Source: an uncultured Candidatus Saccharibacteria bacterium
GTDB lineage: Bacteria > Patescibacteriota > Saccharimonadia > Saccharimonadales > Saccharimonadaceae
Reading direction: 5' to 3'
DNA: 64,000 nucleotides
Assembly (NCBI GenBank): GCA_947302355.1
Contig: CAMYUU010000004.1
Coordinates: forward strand, 1-64,000
Under the pieces are notes generated by a model. That model saw only the letters and a program-made list of their open reading frames with translations, did not search any database and had not been told where the DNA came from. Shown here piece after piece: positions 6,426 to 57,252 of the stretch; the first letter of the stretch is position 1; each line of letters begins with the position of its first letter. The position numbers and the translations under genes are program-made.

Positions 6426-9400
6426 ATGAAGTTCAAAAGACTGACTAGTGCATTTCTAGCAGTTGTGATGGTGGGCGCGAATATAATTAATGGTCTTTTG
6501 CCGGCTATGGCAGCGGATGACCCAACGGTGAGAAACCCTAGATCGGTAGAGTTGACTGATGGCGTGGTTTTATCGAAGACGGCAGAGAGTGTACCTGGGT
6601 ACGCGAATATGTGGAGAGTTACACTGAAGATTGAAGCGCCAGTAGTTACGATAACTTCGGATACCGTGCTAGTGATTGACCGTTCTGGTAGCATGAGCGG
6701 TAATCGTATGACTTTAGCTAAGTCGGCGGCTAAGTCTTTGGCTGAAGAACTTTTACCAGAAGGTAATACGGTTAACCGAATTGCGGTTATTTCTTTTGGT
6801 ACTACTATAAATGAGGAGGTTGGTTTTTCTGATGATTACGATACGGTAGCTGATGCAATTGACGATATCCAAGTAGGTGGAGGGACATTTACGCAAGGAG
6901 GATTGCATGCTGCGGCCGAGTTGATTGCGTCCTCTACGGCTACACATAAAAACGTGATTTTGCTTTCTGATGGCTTGCCTAGTTATAGCTACGCAATTAA
7001 TGATGTTGGAGATCATTTAGTGCAGGGCGGCCCTAATTTTCACTCTAATCAATTTGAAACAACAATCATTGATTCAGCGAGCGATTTTGATTATACGCGA
7101 AGAGTAGGTGATGGTGGGACGAGTATGCCAGAAAATTATGAAGTTTGGTATCAGTATTGGCATCAGGGCGATCAATATCGTTACTACAATCATGGCAATT
7201 CAGCGATTTCAGAGGCTAATTTCTTTAAGAGTAGCAACAATGGTGATCTTTGGACGATTGCATTTAATGCTGGTACTACTGGTAATAATGTGCTTGGCCA
7301 AATGGCAAGTACTGGCAAAAACAAGACTGCCAGTGAGAGCGATTTGGAAGCAATTTTTGATGAAATTGCTGGCGAAATCTCTTCATTGATTGGCAACAGC
7401 AGTGTGCATGACGTGATGGGTGAAGGCGTAATTGTGGAGAATCCACAACATTCAACTTCGCTAGATTGGACTCCTGTTTATACCTATGATGCGGCAACTG
7501 GGAAATATGTAGCAACTTATACTTATGAGGTTGAGGCAGGTGAGCATATTTTGGATGAAGATAGCACGGACGGATTTCATCCTTTAAATAAAGAAGCGAC
7601 CATAACTTATAATGGTAAAACCGAGAAGTTTCCGGTGCCATACGTGAAACCGTTTTTCGTTAATGTAGCAAAAGCGGTTGAGGGGCAGGAATGTGATGAA
7701 GGAGAATGCGTATTTGATTTTGAGATTGTGCATCCGAATGGCAATAAAACAAGTTATACGGTTGAAGCTGGCAAGACACATCGAATTATAGAAGCGTTTC
7801 CGGTTGGTGATTACACATTGACGGAAACAGGAACAAATAGTAGTAATCCAGTGGGACTTGAATATTATTTAACGTCTTATAGTGGAAATGTTTTCACAAT
7901 TAATGAGCAGCATGCTGATCATATTGATGTAACAATTAACAATAAGTACGAAACGAAGAATATTACGGCGGAAAAGGAGTGGGATGATGATAATAACCGA
8001 GATGGATTCAGGAGTAATTATGACGATTTGTATTTGGCGGTAAAGGATGGTAATAACTATGTTGCTTTTGAGAAAGTCAATACGGATGGTAGCAGTAATT
8101 CTCAAAGTTTCACGTTTGAGGATTTGCCGAAAAATCGAAATGGGGTAGAGATTAACTATACATTAGTCGAAGCGATAGGTTGTGCTGAGGTGAATAATAC
8201 GATAAGCTGTACAAGCGATTTTTCAAAAGACGATGATTACATTAGTACTGTAAGTGGTACCAAGGTGACTAATTCACATACACCAAAGACTACTACGTTG
8301 ACCATAAAGAAGAAATGGGATGTTTCGGCGGGTAACTTGCCGTCCGTGACGCCTGGATTTGTGACGGTCGAGGTCAGTAATGATAAAAACGACGATGTTG
8401 AAACTGTGACTTTGAGGGGAAATGATTATGAAGAATGGCAAGGTGATTTCGAAGGATATAAATATGAGGACGGCCAAGAGATCACATATACAGTGACGGA
8501 AAAACAAATTGGTAATAATGCTTTTGAAGTTAATAAAAGTACACTTTATATTTATAATGATTCTGTCTTAGAAGGTGAATGGGTGGCAAATTATAATGGC
8601 ACAGAGGTAACGAACGTTTGGACGCCCGCAGAAACGGTTTATTCTGGCAATGGCGAGTTCTACATTGAAAAACTTGATCAGGATGGGCAGCCTTTGCAAG
8701 GCGTAACTTTTACTGTTGGTAATGACACCTACACTACTGAAGCCGACGGAAAAGTAGCAGTAGAGTTTTCGGGAGATGACGTAGAACCGGATGATCGATA
8801 TACATTAACTGTTGAGGAAACTTCAGCTCCCGATTATTATGCACTAATTGATGGAACGGCAACAATTGAGGTAACTACAAAGCTAGATTTAGTAGTTGAT
8901 GAAGAGGGGCTAACCAATACTTATACAAAGAATTTCGAATATGCAGCTGGAACTATGGCGGACGGTTATGTTTGGAGGGCGGATGATAATACTTTGGTGG
9001 CGACAGATCAAGCTTTGGCAAAGGAACTGGAGATTGAAAAATCTTTCGAAGGAATAACTGCGGAAGCGTTTAGTGAGAAAAGCGAGATTGAATTTACGAT
9101 TACTGGGCCGGAAGGTTTTGACGAAATGACGGTTGGAATTGGAGATGATGAGTGTGAGATATCTGATAGCAAGCTAGTATGTGTTATTTCTGGAGATGAT
9201 GTTGTTTTGCCTATTGGCGAATATACGGTGGTCGAGGGTAAAGCAGACATTGAAAACTTTACATATGAAAGTGATCCTGAGAGCGGTGAAGTGTCACAAA
9301 CTGCTAAGTTTGGCGAAACAGTTAAATTTGAGCTGCAAAATACTTATACTCCGGTCAATTCGGCATCATATAAAGTTAAAAAAGTATGGGAAGATGATAA

Positions 9401-10952
9401 TAATAGAGATGGAATTCGCCCGGATGAGCTCGCAGTAACGCTTTATGCGGATGGTGAGGAATACGATTCATCTGTAAAATTGGACGAGGATGGTGAGTGG
9501 ACACACGAGTGGACTAATCTGCCATTAGTAAATGAAAACGCGGAAGAGGTAGAGTATACCGTAAAGGAGGCTGAAGTTGATGGTTATGATTCGGATGATG
9601 GTGTAGTGGAAGATGATGTGTTTGTGTTTACTAATACGCATGAACCTGAACTATATGAAGGAACTGGTGATTTGCAGGCAGAGAAAGCGTGGTCGGGTGA
9701 GGGTAATGAATTGGTAAGACCAGCAACTATTACTTTGGTGCTTTATGGTGAAATAACTGACGATGAAGGCGATGTGAAGACTTGGGTAGTTGGAAATCCG
9801 GTAGAAGTATCCGATGCCAATGAGTGGAAATGGACTTTTGAAGGGTTGTATAAATATGAGAATGGTAAAGAGATTACTTATTCGGTACAAGAGTCGGCGA
9901 TCAATGGAGTAAGCTTTGATGAAAATGAGAGTACGATAATTATTTATGAGGATGATGGTCAAGCCTTGAAGGGTAAATGGACAAGGTCTGTTTCGAACTT
10001 TGAGATAACTAATGCCTGGACGTCTGCGATTAATATTTATAATGGAGAGGACGAATTCACCATTAAGAAGATTAATGAAGGCGGCGAAGTGATGGAAGGT
10101 GTGACGTTTATGGTAGGAACGGAAGAGTATACTACGGATGAAGACGGGTTGATTAAGATTGCTGTTCCAGAAGCGACCGAAGTTGCGGAGGATGATCTTG
10201 AATATGTAATTGAGGAAATCGATACCCTGGATGGATATGATTTGGTTGAAGGTTCGGCAACCGTAGCGGTAAAAAGCGTTAGTGAGTTTGTAGAAGCGGA
10301 TATTGAGAAGTTAGAGAATACTTATAGTAAAACTTATAGTTTTTCTGCAGACGGTGATGATGGGTACGATTGGGATGCGGATGATAAGATTATGATGGTT
10401 GTAAATGAGCGTAGTAAGGCCAAGTCTCTTATGATTGAGAAGACATTTTCGGGGGTTTCAGAATCAGATTTGCAAGGTATAACCTTTACGATAACGGGTC
10501 CAGATGATTTCGGGGTTAATGGTGGAATCACGTTAGTGTTCGGTGAGGATTGTAAAGTTTCTGAAACTGTGGCGATATGTAATGTTAGTGTTGAGATCCC
10601 AACCGGTGAATACACCGTTAAAGAGAATAATGCTGAGATCGAGCATTACATTCTAACCGTTTCTGGTGATAATGGCGCGACTAAGGAAGTTGAAAAAGAT
10701 GACGAAGTTATATTTGAGATTACGAATAACTATGAAGAGATTCAGGAGCCGGAGGATCCGTGTGTAAATGGTGGTGGATGCGGCAACGATGCGCTTATAC
10801 CGACTGCTCCAGATACTGGTTCGTTTACTAAAAGTATTGATAATAGTAATGGTGAAACTAGTAGTATGATTGGTGCTATTGCTATGACTATGCTGGTAAT
10901 GTCTAGTGCGATTATGTTTAGTGTAACTGAACTTGCAAAACGAAAAAAATAA
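6426..10952 (+). CDS. Sortase-anchored giant surface protein with vWA and Cna-B repeats
   Basis: A 1508-aa exported adhesin/pilin-like protein. A signal peptide covers residues 1-30 (basic start, hydrophobic core, AMA cleavage site). A von Willebrand A domain (about 77-320) has an intact MIDAS start DRSGSMS (Asp85, Ser87, Ser89). The rest is a chain of Cna-B/prealbumin-like immunoglobulin modules, in which a block of roughly 460 residues is duplicated. The C terminus has APDTGSF, a hydrophobic segment and a KRKK tail, a PDTG-type sorting signal. A strong GAAGGAGG site fixes the ATG at 6426. The architecture resembles tip adhesins/pilins of Gram-positive bacteria, where Cna-B modules carry Lys-Asn isopeptide bonds. 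Target unknown; host-cell attachment is an inference. Confidence 0.88.
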   Translation: MKFKRLTSAFLAVVMVGANIINGLLPAMAADDPTVRNPRSVELTDGVVLSKTAESVPGYANMWRVTLKIEAPVVTITSDTVLVIDRSGSMSGNRMTLAKSAAKSLAEELLPEGNTVNRIAVISFGTTINEEVGFSDDYDTVADAIDDIQVGGGTFTQGGLHAAAELIASSTATHKNVILLSDGLPSYSYAINDVGDHLVQGGPNFHSNQFETTIIDSASDFDYTRRVGDGGTSMPENYEVWYQYWHQGDQYRYYNHGNSAISEANFFKSSNNGDLWTIAFNAGTTGNNVLGQMASTGKNKTASESDLEAIFDEIAGEISSLIGNSSVHDVMGEGVIVENPQHSTSLDWTPVYTYDAATGKYVATYTYEVEAGEHILDEDSTDGFHPLNKEATITYNGKTEKFPVPYVKPFFVNVAKAVEGQECDEGECVFDFEIVHPNGNKTSYTVEAGKTHRIIEAFPVGDYTLTETGTNSSNPVGLEYYLTSYSGNVFTINEQHADHIDVTINNKYETKNITAEKEWDDDNNRDGFRSNYDDLYLAVKDGNNYVAFEKVNTDGSSNSQSFTFEDLPKNRNGVEINYTLVEAIGCAEVNNTISCTSDFSKDDDYISTVSGTKVTNSHTPKTTTLTIKKKWDVSAGNLPSVTPGFVTVEVSNDKNDDVETVTLRGNDYEEWQGDFEGYKYEDGQEITYTVTEKQIGNNAFEVNKSTLYIYNDSVLEGEWVANYNGTEVTNVWTPAETVYSGNGEFYIEKLDQDGQPLQGVTFTVGNDTYTTEADGKVAVEFSGDDVEPDDRYTLTVEETSAPDYYALIDGTATIEVTTKLDLVVDEEGLTNTYTKNFEYAAGTMADGYVWRADDNTLVATDQALAKELEIEKSFEGITAEAFSEKSEIEFTITGPEGFDEMTVGIGDDECEISDSKLVCVISGDDVVLPIGEYTVVEGKADIENFTYESDPESGEVSQTAKFGETVKFELQNTYTPVNSASYKVKKVWEDDNNRDGIRPDELAVTLYADGEEYDSSVKLDEDGEWTHEWTNLPLVNENAEEVEYTVKEAEVDGYDSDDGVVEDDVFVFTNTHEPELYEGTGDLQAEKAWSGEGNELVRPATITLVLYGEITDDEGDVKTWVVGNPVEVSDANEWKWTFEGLYKYENGKEITYSVQESAINGVSFDENESTIIIYEDDGQALKGKWTRSVSNFEITNAWTSAINIYNGEDEFTIKKINEGGEVMEGVTFMVGTEEYTTDEDGLIKIAVPEATEVAEDDLEYVIEEIDTLDGYDLVEGSATVAVKSVSEFVEADIEKLENTYSKTYSFSADGDDGYDWDADDKIMMVVNERSKAKSLMIEKTFSGVSESDLQGITFTITGPDDFGVNGGITLVFGEDCKVSETVAICNVSVEIPTGEYTVKENNAEIEHYILTVSGDNGATKEVEKDDEVIFEITNNYEEIQEPEDPCVNGGGCGNDALIPTAPDTGSFTKSIDNSNGETSSMIGAIAMTMLVMSSAIMFSVTELAKRKK

Positions 10953-11130: not shown

Positions 11131-12849
11131 ATGAGTTATAAGCGATTAGCTTGTGCTTTATCAGTAGGAACTTTAGCTTTAGGGACGGGGATTATTGCTC
11201 CGTCGGTTTGGGCTGAAGGCGAGTGTGTAGCCTCTAATCTGGAAGGGTTGGAGGTTTGTCTTGCTGATGGAGAAGCAACCTCTATCACTACGACTGACAC
11301 CATCGTGGTGACTGGAGAAGATACCAACAAGACATTAGTAATCAATAAAGACATAACTGGCGCTAGCGGTAAGAATGTATTTAGTATTGAGGATGGCGCC
11401 TCGGTGACGTTGCGCGGTAGTGGTGTAATTACTGCTGGTCGTTATGGGGCTTCCGTGGATGGTGCGGAGCTCATAATTGATGGGGTTACAATTAATGCGA
11501 CAAATCCATCTTCGTACGGCATTTATGCATTAAATAATGGTCGCGTGACGATGCAAAGTGGACAAGTGGTCGCCGATTATGCTGCTTTTGCTGGAAATAA
11601 TACAACTGGAGATATGAATTTTTACATTCGGGGTGGTCAGCTAATTTCCAATAGATACCCAGCAATCTACATGCCTGGTCAGGTTGATTTAGAAATGCGA
11701 GGTGGCACGCTGACTGGTGGTATTGTAGCTAGAATGGGCCAAATTACGATTGAAGGTGGTACTATTAATGCTCAACCTAATCCAGTTTCTGATGACGGCA
11801 TCGATAAAAATTACAGTAGTATGCCTAGTGTTACGGGTGAAGCGATTACTCTTCTCGCCGGGACTTATAAAAGCGCAAATGCTGAGCATGGTAATGACAT
11901 GAATGTGGTTATTAGCGGCGATAACACTCAAATAAATGGCGATGTCGTGCTTTATGATTTAGGCAATACTGCTGCTGGCTATGAGCAAAATGTAAATGTG
12001 AGAATAGAAGATGGTCGTCTGACTGGATTCCAAACTAAGTTTACCGAAGAAGAGATTGGTTTTGCTCTTAAATCTGGTTATACTGCTGGTCTTAATAATG
12101 CGGCTGAGAGAGTCAATGTTGAGATTACTGGTGGTAAGTATATAACAGAACCAGCCGAGGAGGATATTGCTCCGGATTCTGAAGCTGAATATGACGAAGA
12201 TGCCGGTGTTTACGTGATTTGGCCAAAGCGAGTTGATTACTCCAACTGGTATATCGAAACAGATCTTAGCGAAGATCAGTTGCCTGTATTTGTAGAATTT
12301 GGTGATGTTGAGTTTATCGCTGACAGAAAGGCGACCTTATCTGCAACTGAGGTGGATACGGACGAACTCACTTTGACTGGTGAAGGCGAATTGATTGGCG
12401 CTCTAGATTTATCAATGCTTGATCGTGATGGTCATGTGATTAAGGTGAGTAACAATAGCTTGATTGTGCATATCGACTTAGATGAAGATTCTTATAATCT
12501 GTTCTCCGAATACGATAAGCTCTATGCGGTCTATTTCAACGAGGACGGTGAAGAAGTCGAGCGATTCGAGATTAATCTCGAGAGCGAAATTGATGAAGAA
12601 TTCTCTTGGTATTGGCTCTGGTTTGAAACACCACATCTATCAACTTATGGTGTGGTCGGTGTAAATGAGTCTGAGGAAGAGGGCTCGCAAGAGGCCACTG
12701 GGGCATCGACGCCAGATACTGGTACGATGACTATGGCTGGTGCTTCGGCATCAACTGCGGCGATTGTGACTGTTTTGGTAGTTGGTGTATTGACGTCGGT
12801 CGTAAGCTTTGCGTATTTGTTTAAGAAATTGTATCTCAATAGGAAGTAA
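11131..12849 (+). CDS. Sortase-anchored surface protein with beta-helix-like repeats
   Basis: A 572-aa exported protein. The signal peptide is residues 1-29 (VWA-E cleavage). Residues ~55-345 contain many short glycine-spaced strands with inner Val/Ile/Asn (for example VTLRGSGVITAGRYG, VTMQSGQVV, ITIEGGTINAQ), the look of a right-handed parallel beta-helix/pectin-lyase fold. A more acidic C-terminal domain follows (about 370-525). The end has STPDTGTM, a hydrophobic segment and KKLYLNRK, a second PDTG sorting signal matching that of its neighbour. It has its own promoter and terminator and lies inside the split spc operon. Role unknown; no catalytic residues can be assigned. Confidence 0.82.
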   Translation: MSYKRLACALSVGTLALGTGIIAPSVWAEGECVASNLEGLEVCLADGEATSITTTDTIVVTGEDTNKTLVINKDITGASGKNVFSIEDGASVTLRGSGVITAGRYGASVDGAELIIDGVTINATNPSSYGIYALNNGRVTMQSGQVVADYAAFAGNNTTGDMNFYIRGGQLISNRYPAIYMPGQVDLEMRGGTLTGGIVARMGQITIEGGTINAQPNPVSDDGIDKNYSSMPSVTGEAITLLAGTYKSANAEHGNDMNVVISGDNTQINGDVVLYDLGNTAAGYEQNVNVRIEDGRLTGFQTKFTEEEIGFALKSGYTAGLNNAAERVNVEITGGKYITEPAEEDIAPDSEAEYDEDAGVYVIWPKRVDYSNWYIETDLSEDQLPVFVEFGDVEFIADRKATLSATEVDTDELTLTGEGELIGALDLSMLDRDGHVIKVSNNSLIVHIDLDEDSYNLFSEYDKLYAVYFNEDGEEVERFEINLESEIDEEFSWYWLWFETPHLSTYGVVGVNESEEEGSQEATGASTPDTGTMTMAGASASTAAIVTVLVVGVLTSVVSFAYLFKKLYLNRK

Positions 12850-50400: not shown

Positions 50401-50912
50401 GTTCTACGGGGCCTTACACTATGGTTACTCAACAGCCATTAGGTGGTAAGGCGCAGAATGGTGGCCAGAGATTTGGGGAAATGGAGGTCTGGGCACTTGA
50501 AGCTTACGGTGCCGCTACTACTCTTCAGGAGATGTTAACAATTAAGTCGGATGACGTTTACGGTCGTGCTAAAGCATATGAAGCGATTATCAAACACGAG
50601 CCGATTGAAGGACCTAAGCTTCCAGAAGGCTTCAATGTCTTGGTCAAGGAATTACAAGGTCTTGGACTTAAGGTTGATCTTCTAGACCACGGAGAGTCTG
50701 CTGATGCTGGTGACGTTATAGAACGAACTTCAAAAGAAATTGAAAAATCAAAGGATGATCAATCCATCTATGATCAACACAAGAAAGATACCGAGCCGCA
50801 AATCTACGACCTTGACGAGTCAGAGGCCGAAGCAATGATTGCAGAAGAAGGTATCGAAATAACAGAGGGCGACGAAGATGATGGTACTGTCGACCTCGGA
50901 GAGGAGTTCTAA
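47484..50912 (+). CDS. rpoB: RNA polymerase beta subunit
   Basis: 1142 aa. Forms one half of the catalytic cleft. Main landmarks: RSAGVFF, the rifampicin region with SQLSQLMDEVNPF and LAHKRRLSSMGPGG (the usual susceptible residues are present), RERAGFDVRDAHPTHYGR, the AMPWRGYN-like FMPWRGYNMDDAI, KLAGRHGNKGV, GGKAQNGGQRFGEMEVWALEAYGA. The last ~70 residues are acidic. Two possible starts: ATG 47484 (GAGG 8 nt before) and ATG 47532 (AAAGAGG 4 nt before), 16 codons apart; I keep the longer one without strong preference. rpoC starts 1 nt after the stop. Confidence 0.96.
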   Translation: MSLSKKNTNNTNKRGRMATKPKSGERVFFTEGDQALPIPDLTAHQKDSWADFVDNGLREVFDELNPIKDYTGNKLSLTFKEHYFKEPKETDAQAKYNLATYEAPLHVVVEVENLETHAKKEQDIYFGDYPWMTDRATFIINGTERVVVSQLIRSAGVFFNAETIGLRRYYGAKVIPGRGAWLEFETAANGAMYVKIDRRRKIPVTTFLRALGLSKSEIKQKFEGIDNGEKSYIDATLEKDVTSSQGEALLEVYRRLRPGDLATVENAKSMIERTFFDPKRYDYSNVGRFKINRRLGFDTPNDPEHRTLQIDDVIAIISEMIRLNNTQDPADDIDSLSNRRVKLVGELVQRQFRLGMLRLQRNILDRMSMANPEEVTPSQLLNPRPVVAAVKEFFATSQLSQLMDEVNPFSELAHKRRLSSMGPGGLTRERAGFDVRDAHPTHYGRICTVETPEGGNVGLVLNFATYARINEYGFIEAPYRVVKNGKVTDEVVYMDADTERDKVIADASVKLDKNGHFVEDWVSARVHGTPAQAEASTVTHIDAAHKEILGVSASLIPFVEKNRVDRSLMACAMQKQAVPLLRNDNPVVGTGIEAEVARNTSQLVMASGKGVVKKADGDSVIVTYDKGGNIEYKLQHFEKTNDDRCYNQRCVAKRGQKVKKGDILIEGASVNDGELALGRDLLVAFMPWRGYNMDDAIVISNRLVEDDTLTSINIKDFDVEVRETKLGPEQVTRDIPNVSEHSLRHLGEDGIVTIGSEVKNGDILVGKITPKGEQELSSEERLLRAIFGEKAKDVRDTSIRMNGSSTGKVVDVRVYTREQGHELKAGVIMQIKIFVAEMRKIGVGDKLAGRHGNKGVVSRVLPIEDMPFMEDGTPVDIVLSPMGVPSRMNLGQLFETHLGMAARALGYKVATPSFNGVPDETISSELKKAGFSEDGRVQLYDGLTGEPFNERTSVGVMHMLKLHHMVEDKIHARSTGPYTMVTQQPLGGKAQNGGQRFGEMEVWALEAYGAATTLQEMLTIKSDDVYGRAKAYEAIIKHEPIEGPKLPEGFNVLVKELQGLGLKVDLLDHGESADAGDVIERTSKEIEKSKDDQSIYDQHKKDTEPQIYDLDESEAEAMIAEEGIEITEGDEDDGTVDLGEEF

Positions 50913-50913
50913 G

Positions 50914-53900
50914 ATGGCTTGGATGGATAATTTCATAAGCGCATCAGATTTTGACTCTATAAGACTAACTATAGCGAGTCGAGACGATATTTTGAACTGG
51001 AGTTATGGCGAAGTAACTAAGCCAGAGACCATTAATTATCGAACGCAAAAACCAGAGAGGGATGGTCTGTTTTGTGAAAGGATTTTTGGTCCAACGAAGG
51101 ATATTAATCCGCACGACTCAAAACTTAAAGGCGTGCGTTCGCGCGAAGCCGCAGTTGATAAGGAAGGCAATCTAGTTACTAAATCAATCACGCGCCGTGA
51201 ACGTATGGGGCACATTGAGCTAGCGGCTCCTGTGGCGCATATTTGGTTTATGCGCGGTATTCCTTCCGCTTTGAGTTTGTTACTGGATATAACAGTAAAA
51301 AATATTGAGAGAGTGGTTTATTTTGCTACTTATCTCATAACAGATGCTAAGACGGAAGAAATTCAAAAAACTCTAGAAAAGTTAGAGAATCAAACCAAAA
51401 CAGCTGAGCAAGCTATTAAAATTCGTTACGAGAAGGAAGCCAAAAAGAAAGGTGCTGATATCGAGGCGTTAGCTGAAGAAAGAACTAAGGAGTTGGAAGA
51501 ACTAGAAACTAATTATCAGTCCGACAAATCAATCTTGGAGTCCTTCAAGAAAGGTAATACCATTACTGAGGTTCAGTATCGTAGCTTGCCAGAAGAATAC
51601 GAAGATTTAATCACTGTAGAGATGGGCGCAACTGCAATTAAGAAGTTGCTTGACGAAATTGATCTCGACAAGTTGATTGAAGATTTGCATAAAGAAGAAG
51701 AACAAGTTAAGGGTCAAAGAGAAAAGAAGATCCAAAAACGCTTGAAGACGCTAGAAGGAATGCAAGCTGCAGGAATTAGGCCAGAAGATTTGATTTTGAC
51801 TGTAGTTCCGGTTATCCCACCAGATTTAAGGCCAATGATTGCGTTGCCTGGTGGTAGGTTTGCGACTTCTGACCTAAATGACCTTTATCGTCGTGTAATC
51901 AACCGTAACAATCGTCTTAAAAAATTAATGGATCTAAATGCGCCAGAGGTGATTTGTAGAAATGAAATGAGAATGCTGCAAGAGGCTGTCGATGCGTTAA
52001 TCGATAATTCAGCTGCTCATGGCTCTAGGGGTGCAAACTCTACTAATGGTAGGCGTAAATTGAAATCCCTATCTGATTTACTAAAAGGTAAGCAAGGTAG
52101 GTTCCGTCAGAATTTACTAGGTAAGCGTGTAGATTATTCAGGTCGATCCGTTATCGTGGTTGGACCAGAATTGAAGCTCAACGAATGTGGTTTGCCAAAG
52201 CAGATGGCTCTCGAATTGTTTAAGCCCTTTGTAATCTCTTGGTTGATTGGTCATGAGTATGCCAATAACATCAGGGCCGCATCTAGATTGATTGAGGCGA
52301 AGGAGACTGTGGTTTGGGATGCGCTCGATGAAATAATTGAAGGTAAGTATGTATTACTAAATCGTGCACCGTCTCTACATAGATTGTCTGTGCAAGCTTT
52401 CCAGCCTAAATTGATTGATGGCAAGGCGATTAAATTACATCCATTAGTCGCTTCTGGATTTAACGCTGACTACGATGGCGATCAGATGGCGGTTCATCTT
52501 CCACTTTCCGATGCTGCTCAGGCAGAAGCTAAGGAGCTAATGTCTGCTTCAAAGAATCTTTTGAAACCGGCTGATGGTTCTCCAGTGCTAGCTATTTATC
52601 AGGATGTGGTGCTAGGCGCATATTATTTGACATATGATAAGCCTGGTACAGATACGGATAAGCCTAAGGCTTTCTCAAGTGTATATGAAGCCGAAATGGC
52701 TCACGATCAGGGAATAATTGCTCTTCAAACGCCGATTAGGGTATTCGCTAAGAAAGAGATTCGCGATACGACTCTAGGTAGGGTGATTTTCAATGAAATT
52801 TTGCCAAAAGATTATCCATATGACAATTCAGTGCAGACTAAGAAGCATTTATCTAAGGTAATGGCTGATATCTTTGATCTTTATGGATCTGAGGTGATGG
52901 TGAAGACTGCTGATGCCTTGAAAGACTTAGCGTTTGAGTATGAAACTGTGGCTTCGATTTCTACAGCTAAGGATGATTATCCAACTTATGATGAAATCGA
53001 TGACTTTATCGCCGAAGGTGACGCTAAGACAGCTATGATTCAGGAGCAGTTCAATGATGGATTAGTCACTGAAGAAGAGCGTCATAAGCTAACTATCGCA
53101 AACTGGCGCGATATCGATAAAAAGATTTCGGACTTCTTGCAGAGCAAGCTATCTGAGATGGATACCGATATCGCGGTAATGGTGAACTCTGGCGCACGTG
53201 GTAATATTTCGAATATTAAATTGGCCTCTGCCGAAATTGGTATCATGGTTGATATTAATAACAATGAGATTGAATTGCCGGTGAAATCTTCGTACAAGAA
53301 AGGTTTGAATACTTTGGAGTCCTTTATTGCAACACGAGGTGCGCGTCAGGGGCAGGTATCTACCGCTCTTCGTACCGCCGACTCTGGTTATTTGACTCGT
53401 AGATTGGTTGATGTATCACAGGACGTATTTACATCTGATGAAGAAGCAGTCGATCCTGGGTTTACGGTTTATCGCAATGAGACCGAAGCATCTGGTATCG
53501 AGTTTAGTGCTAGACTTAATGGTCGTTATACTGCTGAAGCGGTACCAGGCTACCTAGAAGCTGATGAGCTAATTACTAAGGAAATGGCAGAGCAGATTGA
53601 AGCTGACGAAAAGATACAATCAGTTAAGATTCAATCAATTTTGTCTACTACTGCAGTGGAAGGGATTCCTCGTAAGGCTTATGGTATAGATATGTCTACC
53701 AGAACATTGGTGGCAGCAAATGAGCCAGTTGGCGTAATCGCTGCCCAGTCCTTGGGTGAGCCTGGTACGCAGCTAACGCTTGATACTAAGCATGGTTCTG
53801 GTGTGGCTGGTTCTGGTGCGATTGCAAGAGGTCTTCCTCGTGTAGAAGAGCTTTTAGAGGCGCGTACTCCTAAAGGTCAGGCGTATGTTTCGCCAATCGA

Positions 53901-54747
53901 TGGTGTCGTGAATATGTGGGAAGACAATAATCGCTATATCGTCGAGATTACCCCACAATCTGGTGTAGTTGAGAGGATTGAGCTTGGTGGCCGAAAGCCA
54001 GCGGTAAAAGATGGTGCTAGCGTGAAAGCTGGTGCAACTTTGGTAAAGAAGAGTGGCGATAAACCAGCAATTAAGGCTCCACATGATGGTATCGTAGAGT
54101 TAGTTAAGGATGGCATCGTACTAGTGGCGTCGGCGTCTGCACCTGTTAGAGTTGAAATTCCTGGCGATGCTGAATTAGTTGTTAAAAGCAATGATTCAAT
54201 AGAAGCGGGCGATCGCTTGACTGCTGGCTCCTTGAATCTTCAAGATTTGATGAAGTATAAGGGTGTAGAAGAAACTGAGCGTTATATTATGAACGATGTT
54301 CTCAGCGTTTATGCTGCACAAGGTCATGAGATTTCACCAAAGCATCTAGAGATAATCGTGCATCAGATGTTCTCGCGTGTACAGGTTAACGAGCCTGGCG
54401 ATTCAGAATTCGTATCTGGCGATATCGTTTCTAAGGCTACAGTTTTGACCGAGAATAAAGAGTTGGAGAAAGCAGGTAAAACTCCTGCAACCTATACCAA
54501 TTTGCTTCTAGGTATTACTAAGGTGTCGATCTTCTCTGATTCATTCTTGTCAGCTGCTTCGTTCCAAGACACGACGAGAGTATTGATTAATGCTGCGATT
54601 AATGGTCGCGTTGATCACCTAAAGGGCTTAAAGGAAAATGTTATCATTGGCCGCAAGATTCCTGTAGGTACTGGCGTAGCTCCTTTATCTAGCTTTGAGA
54701 CTTCGGATTCAAAGCTCCCGACCGAAGCGGATCTTGAGAATCTTTAA
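50914..54747 (+). CDS. rpoC: RNA polymerase beta' subunit lacking zinc-binding cysteines
   Basis: 1277 aa. Catalytic NADYDGDQ at residues 517-523 holds the three Mg-binding aspartates. GEPGTQLTL, the clamp and the trigger-loop region (TRGARQGQ) are all there. Both zinc sites are missing: the N-terminal four-Cys finger between FCERIFG and RRERMGHIELA has none of its Cys (residues ~60-100), and the downstream GxCxxCYG is GIPRKAYG (Pro919, Ala922). Only three cysteines remain in the protein. ATG at 50914, behind GGAGAGGAG inside rpoB. Confidence 0.96.
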   Translation: MAWMDNFISASDFDSIRLTIASRDDILNWSYGEVTKPETINYRTQKPERDGLFCERIFGPTKDINPHDSKLKGVRSREAAVDKEGNLVTKSITRRERMGHIELAAPVAHIWFMRGIPSALSLLLDITVKNIERVVYFATYLITDAKTEEIQKTLEKLENQTKTAEQAIKIRYEKEAKKKGADIEALAEERTKELEELETNYQSDKSILESFKKGNTITEVQYRSLPEEYEDLITVEMGATAIKKLLDEIDLDKLIEDLHKEEEQVKGQREKKIQKRLKTLEGMQAAGIRPEDLILTVVPVIPPDLRPMIALPGGRFATSDLNDLYRRVINRNNRLKKLMDLNAPEVICRNEMRMLQEAVDALIDNSAAHGSRGANSTNGRRKLKSLSDLLKGKQGRFRQNLLGKRVDYSGRSVIVVGPELKLNECGLPKQMALELFKPFVISWLIGHEYANNIRAASRLIEAKETVVWDALDEIIEGKYVLLNRAPSLHRLSVQAFQPKLIDGKAIKLHPLVASGFNADYDGDQMAVHLPLSDAAQAEAKELMSASKNLLKPADGSPVLAIYQDVVLGAYYLTYDKPGTDTDKPKAFSSVYEAEMAHDQGIIALQTPIRVFAKKEIRDTTLGRVIFNEILPKDYPYDNSVQTKKHLSKVMADIFDLYGSEVMVKTADALKDLAFEYETVASISTAKDDYPTYDEIDDFIAEGDAKTAMIQEQFNDGLVTEEERHKLTIANWRDIDKKISDFLQSKLSEMDTDIAVMVNSGARGNISNIKLASAEIGIMVDINNNEIELPVKSSYKKGLNTLESFIATRGARQGQVSTALRTADSGYLTRRLVDVSQDVFTSDEEAVDPGFTVYRNETEASGIEFSARLNGRYTAEAVPGYLEADELITKEMAEQIEADEKIQSVKIQSILSTTAVEGIPRKAYGIDMSTRTLVAANEPVGVIAAQSLGEPGTQLTLDTKHGSGVAGSGAIARGLPRVEELLEARTPKGQAYVSPIDGVVNMWEDNNRYIVEITPQSGVVERIELGGRKPAVKDGASVKAGATLVKKSGDKPAIKAPHDGIVELVKDGIVLVASASAPVRVEIPGDAELVVKSNDSIEAGDRLTAGSLNLQDLMKYKGVEETERYIMNDVLSVYAAQGHEISPKHLEIIVHQMFSRVQVNEPGDSEFVSGDIVSKATVLTENKELEKAGKTPATYTNLLLGITKVSIFSDSFLSAASFQDTTRVLINAAINGRVDHLKGLKENVIIGRKIPVGTGVAPLSSFETSDSKLPTEADLENL

Positions 54748-54775
54748 GATACATAGTTATCTTGGAGTAAAGAAG

Positions 54776-54806
54776 AATCTCCCTTTCAGAGATAAGGGAG
54801 ATTTTT
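54776..54806 (+). terminator. Terminator after rpoC
   Basis: 10-bp stem AATCTCCCTT / AAGGGAGATT with an 8-nt loop and T5. Confidence 0.9.
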
Positions 54807-54879
54807 CGTTTATCTTGGTTTTTGGGGTTTCAAAATCTGACGAAGTATGCTAATATATATATAGTTATCAAGAGGTATT

Positions 54880-56313
54880 ATGCATTTCAAGACTATTTTC
54901 AAATCCCTAAAGAATAAAGATATGTTGAAGCGAGTATTTATTATACTCGGTATTATTCTGGCTTATAGATTATTAGCGCAGATTCCTGTACCGATGGGTG
55001 ATGCGTCTACTTTTAAAGAAGCTGTATCAAATCTAATGGAAAAGTCTGATTTTTCGAGTTTCCTAAATTTGATTTCTGGTGGCGGTTTGGCTTCATTTAG
55101 TATTATTTTGGTTGGTTTATCTCCATATATTACTGGCTCAATTGTGATCCAACTTTTAACTAAGGCTATTCCTTCTCTTGAGGAGATTTCGAACGATGGA
55201 GAAACTGGGCGTCGCAAGATTAATCAGTGGACGAGAATTTTGACGGTTCCTCTTGCAATTGTTCAGTCTATCGCCTATATCTTTATTCTTTATCAGTCAA
55301 CTTTGTCAGCAAATATCGCTTCTGATTTTACGCCTACTTTTAATGATTGGGCGCTGTCGGTAACCGCTATGACTGCGGGTTCGGTAATTTTGATGTGGTT
55401 AGGTGAGTTGATTACGGAGCAAGGTATCGGAAATGGTATTTCTATGTTGATTTTTGCTTCTATAATTTCGCAATTGCCGACCACGATGGCTTCTCTTGGT
55501 GCGTCGCTATTTGACACTAGCGAGGGGACGCTTAACCTGTTTGGATGGTTAGATATACCAGTAAATCCGACGACATTTTGGATTCTGCTTGGATTTAGTG
55601 TAGCTATGCTAATAGTTATTTATTTCTTAGTGAAGTTGAATGAGGCACAACGCATTATTACTATTAACTATGCTAAGAGGGTACATGGAAATTCATCCTA
55701 CGGAGGAATTAAGTCGATTTTGCCAATAAAGCTAATTGCAGCTGGCGTAATTCCGGTTATTTTCGCGACTGCCTTCTTGTCGCTTCCAGCGTTGGTGGGT
55801 CAGGTAATCACTTCTATAGATTCGGGGAATGAGTTTGGCCAGTCGTTGATTACTATTTTTTCTGCTCCTTCGGCTAATAATTTTGCGGTTATGTATCCGG
55901 ATGGAATAACTGCACAGTGGTTTGTTTATCCGGCATTATATTTCGTATTGGTATTTATCTTTACGTATTTTTACACCTCTATTATCTTTAACACTAAGGA
56001 AATCGCCGATAATCTACAAAAACAAGGTGGTTTCATTGAGGGTGTGAGGCCGGGTATTACTACGGCAAATTATTTAAGTAAGGTTGTAAATAGACTTGAT
56101 TTGTTTGGGGCATTAGCTTTGGGCTTGATTGCGATGTTGCCATTCATTACTGATTATGTCTTTATTTTGACAACTGGCGCACCAATTGGCTTATCGATTT
56201 CTGGTACTGGTCTTTTGATCGTGGTGACGGTGGCACTTGAGAATCTACGGTCGATAGATTCAAGAGCATTAATGATAACATACGACGATTTTGATAATGA
56301 GTCTAGAGATTAA
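54880..56313 (+). CDS. secY: Protein translocase subunit SecY
   Basis: 477 aa. Pore-forming subunit of the SecYEG export channel with ten membrane segments. Family blocks: YRLLAQIPVPMGD near the start, SLEEISNDGETGRRKINQWTR at the cytoplasmic loop and NLQKQGGFIEGVRPG near the C terminus. Usually at the end of the spc operon next to rplO; here it heads the block secY-sortase-infA. AAGAGGTATT lies before the ATG; the promoter (weak AT boxes near 54852) is not obvious. Confidence 0.95.
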   Translation: MHFKTIFKSLKNKDMLKRVFIILGIILAYRLLAQIPVPMGDASTFKEAVSNLMEKSDFSSFLNLISGGGLASFSIILVGLSPYITGSIVIQLLTKAIPSLEEISNDGETGRRKINQWTRILTVPLAIVQSIAYIFILYQSTLSANIASDFTPTFNDWALSVTAMTAGSVILMWLGELITEQGIGNGISMLIFASIISQLPTTMASLGASLFDTSEGTLNLFGWLDIPVNPTTFWILLGFSVAMLIVIYFLVKLNEAQRIITINYAKRVHGNSSYGGIKSILPIKLIAAGVIPVIFATAFLSLPALVGQVITSIDSGNEFGQSLITIFSAPSANNFAVMYPDGITAQWFVYPALYFVLVFIFTYFYTSIIFNTKEIADNLQKQGGFIEGVRPGITTANYLSKVVNRLDLFGALALGLIAMLPFITDYVFILTTGAPIGLSISGTGLLIVVTVALENLRSIDSRALMITYDDFDNESRD

Positions 56314-56983
56314 GGGTTGGCGCAAAATTATAAAGTGGGTGGCTTGGTCGATCCTAGCTGGTTTATTCTTGATATTTTTAATTAGGGTTGCGGTTTTTGA
56401 AGGGCAGTATTATAGCGAAAAAGAAGGCAGTGAACGGGTTGTGCTAAATTCTAACGATTCTGGGGAAGAACTAATCGAAGTAGAGCCGACGGAAGAAGAG
56501 GTGAGGGAGTATAAAGTAGCCCCCGACCGTCCACGGTATTTGTCAATTGAAAAACTTGGAATATCGAAGGCTAGGATTCTGGCTATGGGCGTGAATGCCG
56601 CCGGGGAATTGGATACGCCGCAAAATATATTTGATGTAGGATGGTACGAAGCATCTGGTAAGCCTGGTCAGGGCGGCACTATGATTATTGATGGTCATAA
56701 TGGTGGTCCGCATGTGCTCGGAGTTTTCAAGAATACTCCTAAGCTTTCTGAGGGTGACATTGTCACTGTGGAGCGAGGAGATGGCGTGATTTATAATTAT
56801 TCAGTCGTGGAGAATAATTCCGTGCCCTTGGATGAAGCAGATACATATATGGCGACAGCTGCTAAATCACCTGTTTCGGGGAAAGAATCGGTTACTTTGA
56901 TTACGTGTACTGGTGAATGGTCGCAAAGTCAAGGTACTTATTTATCGCGTCAGTTCACGAGAGCTGTACTCGTAGAAGAATAG
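56297..56983 (+). CDS. Sortase (cell-wall transpeptidase)
   Basis: 228 aa. Membrane segment at residues ~12-34, an acidic linker, then a sortase beta-barrel. The catalytic triad is visible: His134 in IIDGHNGG, Cys204 in TLITCTGE, Arg218 or 222 near YLSRQFTR. It should cut exported proteins at a PDTG-type signal and join them to an acceptor, probably cell-wall peptide. The ATG at 56297 lies 17 bases inside secY, which couples the two. The two PDTG proteins at 6426 and 11131 are its likely substrates. Confidence 0.9.
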   Translation: MSLEIKGWRKIIKWVAWSILAGLFLIFLIRVAVFEGQYYSEKEGSERVVLNSNDSGEELIEVEPTEEEVREYKVAPDRPRYLSIEKLGISKARILAMGVNAAGELDTPQNIFDVGWYEASGKPGQGGTMIIDGHNGGPHVLGVFKNTPKLSEGDIVTVERGDGVIYNYSVVENNSVPLDEADTYMATAAKSPVSGKESVTLITCTGEWSQSQGTYLSRQFTRAVLVEE

Positions 56984-56985
56984 TG

Positions 56986-57014
56986 TTTACAAATGTTATT
57001 TCTTGTGTTATACT
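56986..57014 (+). promoter_or_regulatory. Promoter of infA
   Basis: TTTACA at 56986-56991, 17-nt spacer, TATACT at 57009-57014. The ATG is 13 nt further; the short leader holds a weak AGGGT site. Confidence 0.75.
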
Positions 57015-57027
57015 GGTAGGGTAATTT

Positions 57028-57252
57028 ATGGCTAGTCAAAAGGAAGTGATTAAGCTCACAGGCAGTGTTGTTGAAGCTTTGCCGAATACCCAGTTTCGGG
57101 TTGAACTCGAGAATGGTCATGTTATTGTTGCCCATATGAGTGGGAAGATGCGAAAAAACTACATTCGCCTCGTCCCGGGTGACAGAGTTGAGGTTGAGTT
57201 AACCCCTTATGATCTTACAAAGGGTAGAATCAGTTTTCGACTCAAAGATTAA
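57028..57252 (+). CDS. infA: Translation initiation factor IF-1
   Basis: 74 aa S1/OB-fold protein that blocks the 30S A site during initiation. Signature: [39 protein letters not shown] and [10 protein letters not shown]. Starts the alpha operon block, in the order infA-rpmJ-rpsM. An attenuator-like hairpin follows before rpmJ. Confidence 0.96.

Follow-up and report, generated by a model that had tools for sequence, protein, structure and literature searches.

The gene for the protein-export channel SecY is followed, in the 64,000-nt stretch of Saccharibacteria DNA analysed here (the window), by an overlapping gene for a class-F-like sortase. On balance, we think that this secY-coupled sortase probably anchors surface proteins ending in an [A/T/V]Px[T/S]G signal, and that a second sortase of about 400 aa, encoded outside the window, probably serves the LPxTG proteins. 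The proposal builds on features that are seen directly: the gene order, the overlap, the missing SD site, the intact active-site residues and the co-occurrence of motif and enzyme.

In the mechanism that we propose, a membrane-anchored sortase would be made from a two-gene secY-sortase unit, in which the overlap would couple its translation to that of secY. Proteins exported through SecY and carrying an [A/T/V]Px[T/S]G motif, a linker of about 12 residues, a TM helix and a K/R tail would be held in the membrane. The sortase would cut within the motif via Cys204, with the help of His134 and Arg218, and the cut proteins would be transferred, presumably to the cell wall. Its candidate substrates in this genome are the two window-encoded PDTG proteins plus at least three encoded elsewhere (table 1), while the LPxTG proteins would fall to the second enzyme in a division of labour.

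A sortase gene that starts inside secY

The initial annotation had placed the sortase ATG inside the 3' end of secY, and this is indeed where it lies. The ATG is at 56297 and the secY stop codon at 56311-56313, and the two genes share 17 nt in different frames. The junction, ATGAGTCTAGAGATTAA, is read as ATG AGT CTA GAG ATT in the sortase frame (which stops at 56981-56983) and as ..AAT GAG TCT AGA GAT TAA in the secY frame. The N-terminus M(S/A/G)L(K/E)(I/V) is common to many secY-linked homologues across genera, and because it is conserved we take ATG 56297 as the start; the TTG at 56291, which the ORF program had chosen, is an unlikely one. Overlaps are ordinary in this DNA. Among the plus-strand ORF pairs listed in the window, 12 of 30 overlap their neighbour by 1-35 nt (with mechanically assigned starts). 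The 17-nt overlap alone therefore means little, and it is the choice of secY as the partner that needs explaining.

The two genes differ in their ribosome-binding signals. Across the loci of the genus, anti-SD pairing has a median of -7.0 kcal/mol at secY, with 95% of starts at or below -5 (n=79), whereas at the sortase start the median is 0.3 kcal/mol and only 1.4% are at or below -5 (n=70). Pairing at infA is intermediate (median -3.1 kcal/mol), which means that the sortase is not alone in having a weak SD. A sortase start without an SD, following a secY that has one, makes it likely that translation of the sortase is coupled to translation of secY. The pair has the features by which coupled genes are recognized: the genes overlap or nearly touch, and the second has no ribosome-binding site of its own.

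On the side of transcription, secY is preceded by a terminator-like hairpin and a weak promoter-like site, and another promoter-like site separates the sortase from infA; the end of the latter, 31 nt beyond the sortase stop, also closes the region 54880-57014. The hairpin and the site before infA are consensus matches only, and the count of promoter-like sites in the secY region is not above that in shuffled sequences. Together, these two elements are consistent with a two-gene transcript and suggest that secY and the sortase are transcribed as a unit of their own.

Table 1. Features of the secY-sortase region, the candidate substrates and the related loci. Positions without a contig prefix are those of the window.
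Feature	Position	Strand	Remarks
Candidate substrate 1, VWA + Cna_B + SpaA surface protein	6426..10952	+	ends APDTG-linker-TM-KRKK
PDTG codons, candidate 1	10809..10820	+
Candidate substrate 2, 572-aa surface protein	11131..12849	+	ends TPDTG-linker-TM-NRK; no Pfam match
PDTG codons, candidate 2	12712..12723	+
Terminator-like hairpin after rpoC	54772..54807	+	14-pair stem, then T-rich tail; consensus match only
Weak promoter-like site before secY	54837..54865	+	9/12 consensus bases
secY, protein-export channel	54880..56313	+	PF00344, E 2.9e-92; SD duplex -7.2 kcal/mol
Overlap, secY 3' end and sortase 5' end	56297..56313	+	17 nt
Class-F-like sortase, 228 aa	56297..56983	+	PF04203; NCBIfam class F best; AF2; Foldseek
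Catalytic His134 codon	56696..56698	+	conserved among live homologues
Catalytic Cys204 codon	56906..56908	+	conserved among live homologues
Catalytic Arg218 codon	56948..56950	+	conserved among live homologues
Promoter-like site between sortase and infA	56986..57014	+	TTTACA-17-TATACT, TG before second hexamer; 10/12; consensus match only
infA, next downstream gene	57028..57252	+	same order in most relatives
Second sortase, 402 aa, class-C-like	C3:69733-70941 (G000; L001:829-2037)
TPDTG protein, candidate substrate	C3:44780-44944 (G000; L199)	-	SpaA and T-Q ester-bond domains
APSTG candidate substrate	C8:15379
VPGTG candidate substrate	C4:79287
Pseudo-sortases, genus g11	L362-L391, e.g. L362:1501-2184		full-length, secY-coupled

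Conservation of the arrangement

The survey of secY-sortase overlaps for which the initial annotation had called finds secY directly upstream of the sortase in all 79 readable loci of the genus, most of which come from ruminant guts. Under a strict start rule the sortase begins inside secY in at least 68 of them, with an overlap of 17 nt in 48 loci and of 11 nt in 14, and the catalytic His and Cys are present in all 79. In the family as a whole, a sortase is within reach at 59 of 100 secY loci (directly adjacent in 58), and its start may lie within secY or as far as about 90 nt past the gene, depending on the genus. The length of the overlap is a trait of a few genera; the feature that is conserved family-wide is adjacency. 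At the other 41 loci no sortase was found, even with a family profile search, and the idea that diverged pseudo-sortases hide at these 'empty' loci was dropped. In three assemblies (L097, L119 and L130) the secY-linked sortase is split or truncated by frame changes, owing to sequencing error or decay.

The gene order of the family is rplO-secY-[sortase]-infA-rpsM-rpsK-rpsD-rpoA-rplQ. Within the genus of the window, secY comes after rpoC rather than rplO (window positions 50878-54880); judged from gene order, the spc block is broken there and secY-sortase-infA is retained as a unit. The description of the pair as embedded in core translation genes is right as to position but does not extend to a functional link with translation: the sortase sits among translation genes because this is the ancestral neighbourhood of secY. 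The claim that secY is tied to the sortase fares better, and is supported by gene order, by the overlap and probably by translational coupling. We found no description of the arrangement in the open-licence literature.

A sortase may have landed once behind secY in the ancestor of the family and been kept there by selection on the order of the block, in which case the overlap and the coupling would be meaningless for export. In a sample of 20 class-F sortases taken from other families in the same order and class, not one lies near secY, which speaks for such an accident, as do the commonness of short overlaps in the window, the 41 family loci without a sortase and the start position that varies by genus. 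Yet the adjacency has outlived the break-up of the block in the window's genus, the sortase start has no SD site, and even copies that have lost the catalytic residues are still tightly coupled; in genus g11 their starts lie at -4, -1, +1 or +12 to +13 nt relative to the stop codon of secY. We take a frozen accident to be a serious possibility that falls somewhat short of probable.

The secY-linked enzyme

The sortase has an N-terminal membrane helix (residues 8-43 are helical) and a catalytic domain at about residues 79-225. It matches PF04203 at 59.2 bits, where the cut-off is 26.6. Of all the NCBIfam class models, class F (NF033748) fits best, with 79.5 bits (E 2e-22); since this is below the curated cut-off of 166 bits for that class, we call the protein class-F-like. 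The AF2 model (pLDDT 89.6) shows a single helix at the N-terminus, a stalk modelled with low confidence and a sortase barrel, and all the Foldseek matches listed for it are sortases.

Sorting signals and candidate substrates

Both PDTG proteins encoded in the window have the expected ends of sortase substrates, with a C-terminal PDTG, a linker, a TM helix and a K/R tail, and the first residue of the motif is A or T, not L. Their N-termini are hydrophobic (judged by eye). Candidate 1 contains a VWA domain, four Cna_B stretches and SpaA, and weakly matches a GBS104-like Ig domain. Looking for other PDTG proteins in the genome, as had been proposed, was productive: the PDTG DNA pattern has seven matches, three of which are sorting signals. 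Besides the two proteins of the window, at least three candidates (TPDTG, APSTG and VPGTG) lie elsewhere in the genome. The TPDTG protein at C3:44780 is of a self-linking adhesin type. In genus-mates, the motif takes the form [A/T/V]Px[T/S]G.

The PDTG proteins, which the initial annotation had called plausible substrates, are the best candidates on three comparative lines; what has to be given up is PDTG as the motif itself, which is one form of the looser [A/T/V]Px[T/S]G. Most likely, from these comparisons, the secY-linked sortase anchors surface proteins that end in [A/T/V]PxTG.

Co-occurrence of motif and enzyme

Strong, motif-verified matches to an [A/T/V]PxTG profile occur in 12 of the 21 genomes with a live secY-linked sortase (one that retains its active site) and in none of the 35 in which it is dead or absent. 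With the live genomes restricted to those outside the profile-building set, the counts are 5/14 and 0/35 (Fisher p = 0.001, for genomes that are not independent). Nine of the 21 live genomes have no verified strong match. The profile draws largely on sequences of the window's genus and fails to pick up others. One live genome, G001, is not counted among the 12, as its readable profile matches are without the motif; APDTG is found in another of its proteins (L274).

A second profile was built on a small surface protein with a conserved YNC...YGAG.Y..C core and frames of 73-107 aa. It detects [A/T]PxTG in G049 and G091. Neither genome has a secY-linked sortase, but each encodes a class-F sortase at another site, and in G049 that gene lies next to the one for the [A/T]PxTG protein. 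These two genomes rule out the statement that [A/T/V]PxTG signals are never found without a live secY-linked sortase, and the motif is therefore tied to class-F sortases generally and not to the secY link. In other families, five of 20 sampled class-F sortases adjoin a same-strand [A/V/T]P[D/N]TG protein (APDTG, VPNTG, TPNTG, APDTG and APNTG).

The small surface protein (frames of 73-131 aa overall; L226, L229-L233 and L258-L268) is conserved and carries a sorting signal. Genomes that have a class-F sortase show A or T as the first residue of the motif, and several that have none show L. The homologue in G074, where the sortase Cys is changed to Tyr, keeps the core and the TM helix and has no PxTG (L260, G074:C22:1-195, at a contig end), which speaks for the proposed pairing of enzyme and motif. 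In G023, whose live sortase lies 1.9 kb from secY, the protein carries LASTG, which speaks against it.

The second sortase

The ~400-aa sortase scores best among the sortases of the window's genome. It is present in 28 of the 29 genomes checked, including genomes with a dead secY-linked copy, and its active-site motifs are intact wherever they can be read. The enzyme also has a conserved C-terminal tail, MPxN..FFExIWNWLTG in the window's genus. The LPxTG proteins of the window's genome carry LPSTG (C1:63932) and LPITG (C3:75023), and homologues of the LPSTG protein, nearly all with L/I/MPxTG, occur in 27 of 34 genomes drawn from the live, dead and lacking groups. This LPxTG family (L444, L470-L499) consists of DUF11-repeat surface proteins that are found family-wide regardless of the secY-linked sortase. 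In hand-collected sequences, the median linker between motif and TM helix is 12 residues for [A/T/V]PxTG as against 3 for LPxTG.

An enzyme with this reach, score and active site could be the general anchor, which would also process the PDTG proteins and leave the secY-linked sortase as an accessory. We consider this quite improbable, given that [A/T/V]PxTG signals are less widespread than the ~400-aa sortase and track class-F sortases instead; it is the LPxTG proteins that are about as widespread as it is. The ~400-aa sortase more likely serves the LPxTG proteins, and two enzymes with two signals would be the simplest reading.

Copies without a catalytic site

The initial annotation spoke of an export-and-anchor module. 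Comparative genomics supports this for the live copies, but it is not valid for all secY-linked sortases because the catalytic Cys is absent in 13 of 56 full-length sequences. The Cys is not kept in genus g11 and in eight other sequences. On a tree of the 56 sequences, at least five changes are needed to account for the loss.

Genus g11 has a secY-linked homologue in 36 of 41 genomes. In 29 of 29 full-length aligned sequences none of His, Cys and Arg is retained; in most cases I, L, V, A or N stands in their place. AF2 still predicts a sortase fold and PF04203 still matches, so automatic annotation will label the dead copies 'sortase'. The invariant residues are not confined to the domain; some lie in the N-terminal and juxtamembrane part. 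Most close pairs have a dN/dS of 0.02-0.09 (one very close pair reaches 0.21, on few changes), and by this measure the g11 pseudo-sortase is under strong purifying selection. Its retention hints at a second, non-enzymatic job.

The secY-linked protein might accordingly act at the translocon in a non-catalytic way (e.g. as a partner, tethered to the membrane, that assists folding or hands over substrates), and catalysis would be an extra that was repeatedly lost. The recurrent loss of Cys and the conserved, full-length g11 protein with its retained fold are points in favour of such a role, which we nonetheless find rather doubtful. With 41 of 100 secY loci lacking the gene, the protein is not needed for export in general, and the active site is kept in live copies, which argues that catalysis matters there. 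A broader version, in which the secY-coupled sortase-fold protein of Saccharibacteria is a dedicated partner of SecY at the outer face of the membrane, acting by genus as an active [A/T/V]PxTG sortase or as a non-catalytic pseudo-sortase, we offer as a still more tentative idea and an unlikely one. For the window we prefer an active enzyme that anchors [A/T/V]Px[T/S]G proteins.

Significance and comparison with known systems

Saccharibacteria are tiny episymbionts that live on the surfaces of other bacteria. Should an anchoring role of the secY-linked sortase be true, their attachment would gain a named enzyme, a motif and a list of attached proteins, and there would be a suggestion as to why a 0.7-Mb genome (727 kb for that of the window) keeps two sortases. 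As far as is known from the open-licence literature, a pseudo-sortase that recurs and is conserved downstream of secY would put the sortase fold to a use not described before.

A CPR sortase family, fam000526, has been reported from over half of CPR genomes (Nat Commun 2019, PMC6744442); the passages of that paper that give an account of the family make no mention of secY linkage, pseudo-sortases or sorting motifs. Candidate 1 resembles Gram-positive pilus tip adhesins (GBS104-like) in its VWA, Cna_B, SpaA and weak GBS104-like Ig matches. In contrast to pilus tip adhesin systems, the only sortase of the window is the secY-linked one, and the neighbouring second PDTG gene has no match to a pilin domain. 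Class C and class E sortases (PDB best folds 2xwg, 3o0p and 9iok) have the same fold as the window enzyme with weaker sequence matches, and class-C-like features are a better fit to the genome's other sortase.

The closest likeness is to the class F sortases (NF033748) of Actinobacteria, of which Actinoplanes missouriensis has four (PMC13251363) and which were first studied in Propionibacterium acnes, according to work cited in that paper. Class F is the best NCBIfam subfamily for live and dead secY-linked proteins alike, and the window enzyme shares with it an N-terminal TM helix, a single sortase domain and the His-Cys-Arg residues. It differs from class F enzymes in its coupling to secY and in its likely motif, [A/T/V]PxTG, where theirs is usually LPXTG.
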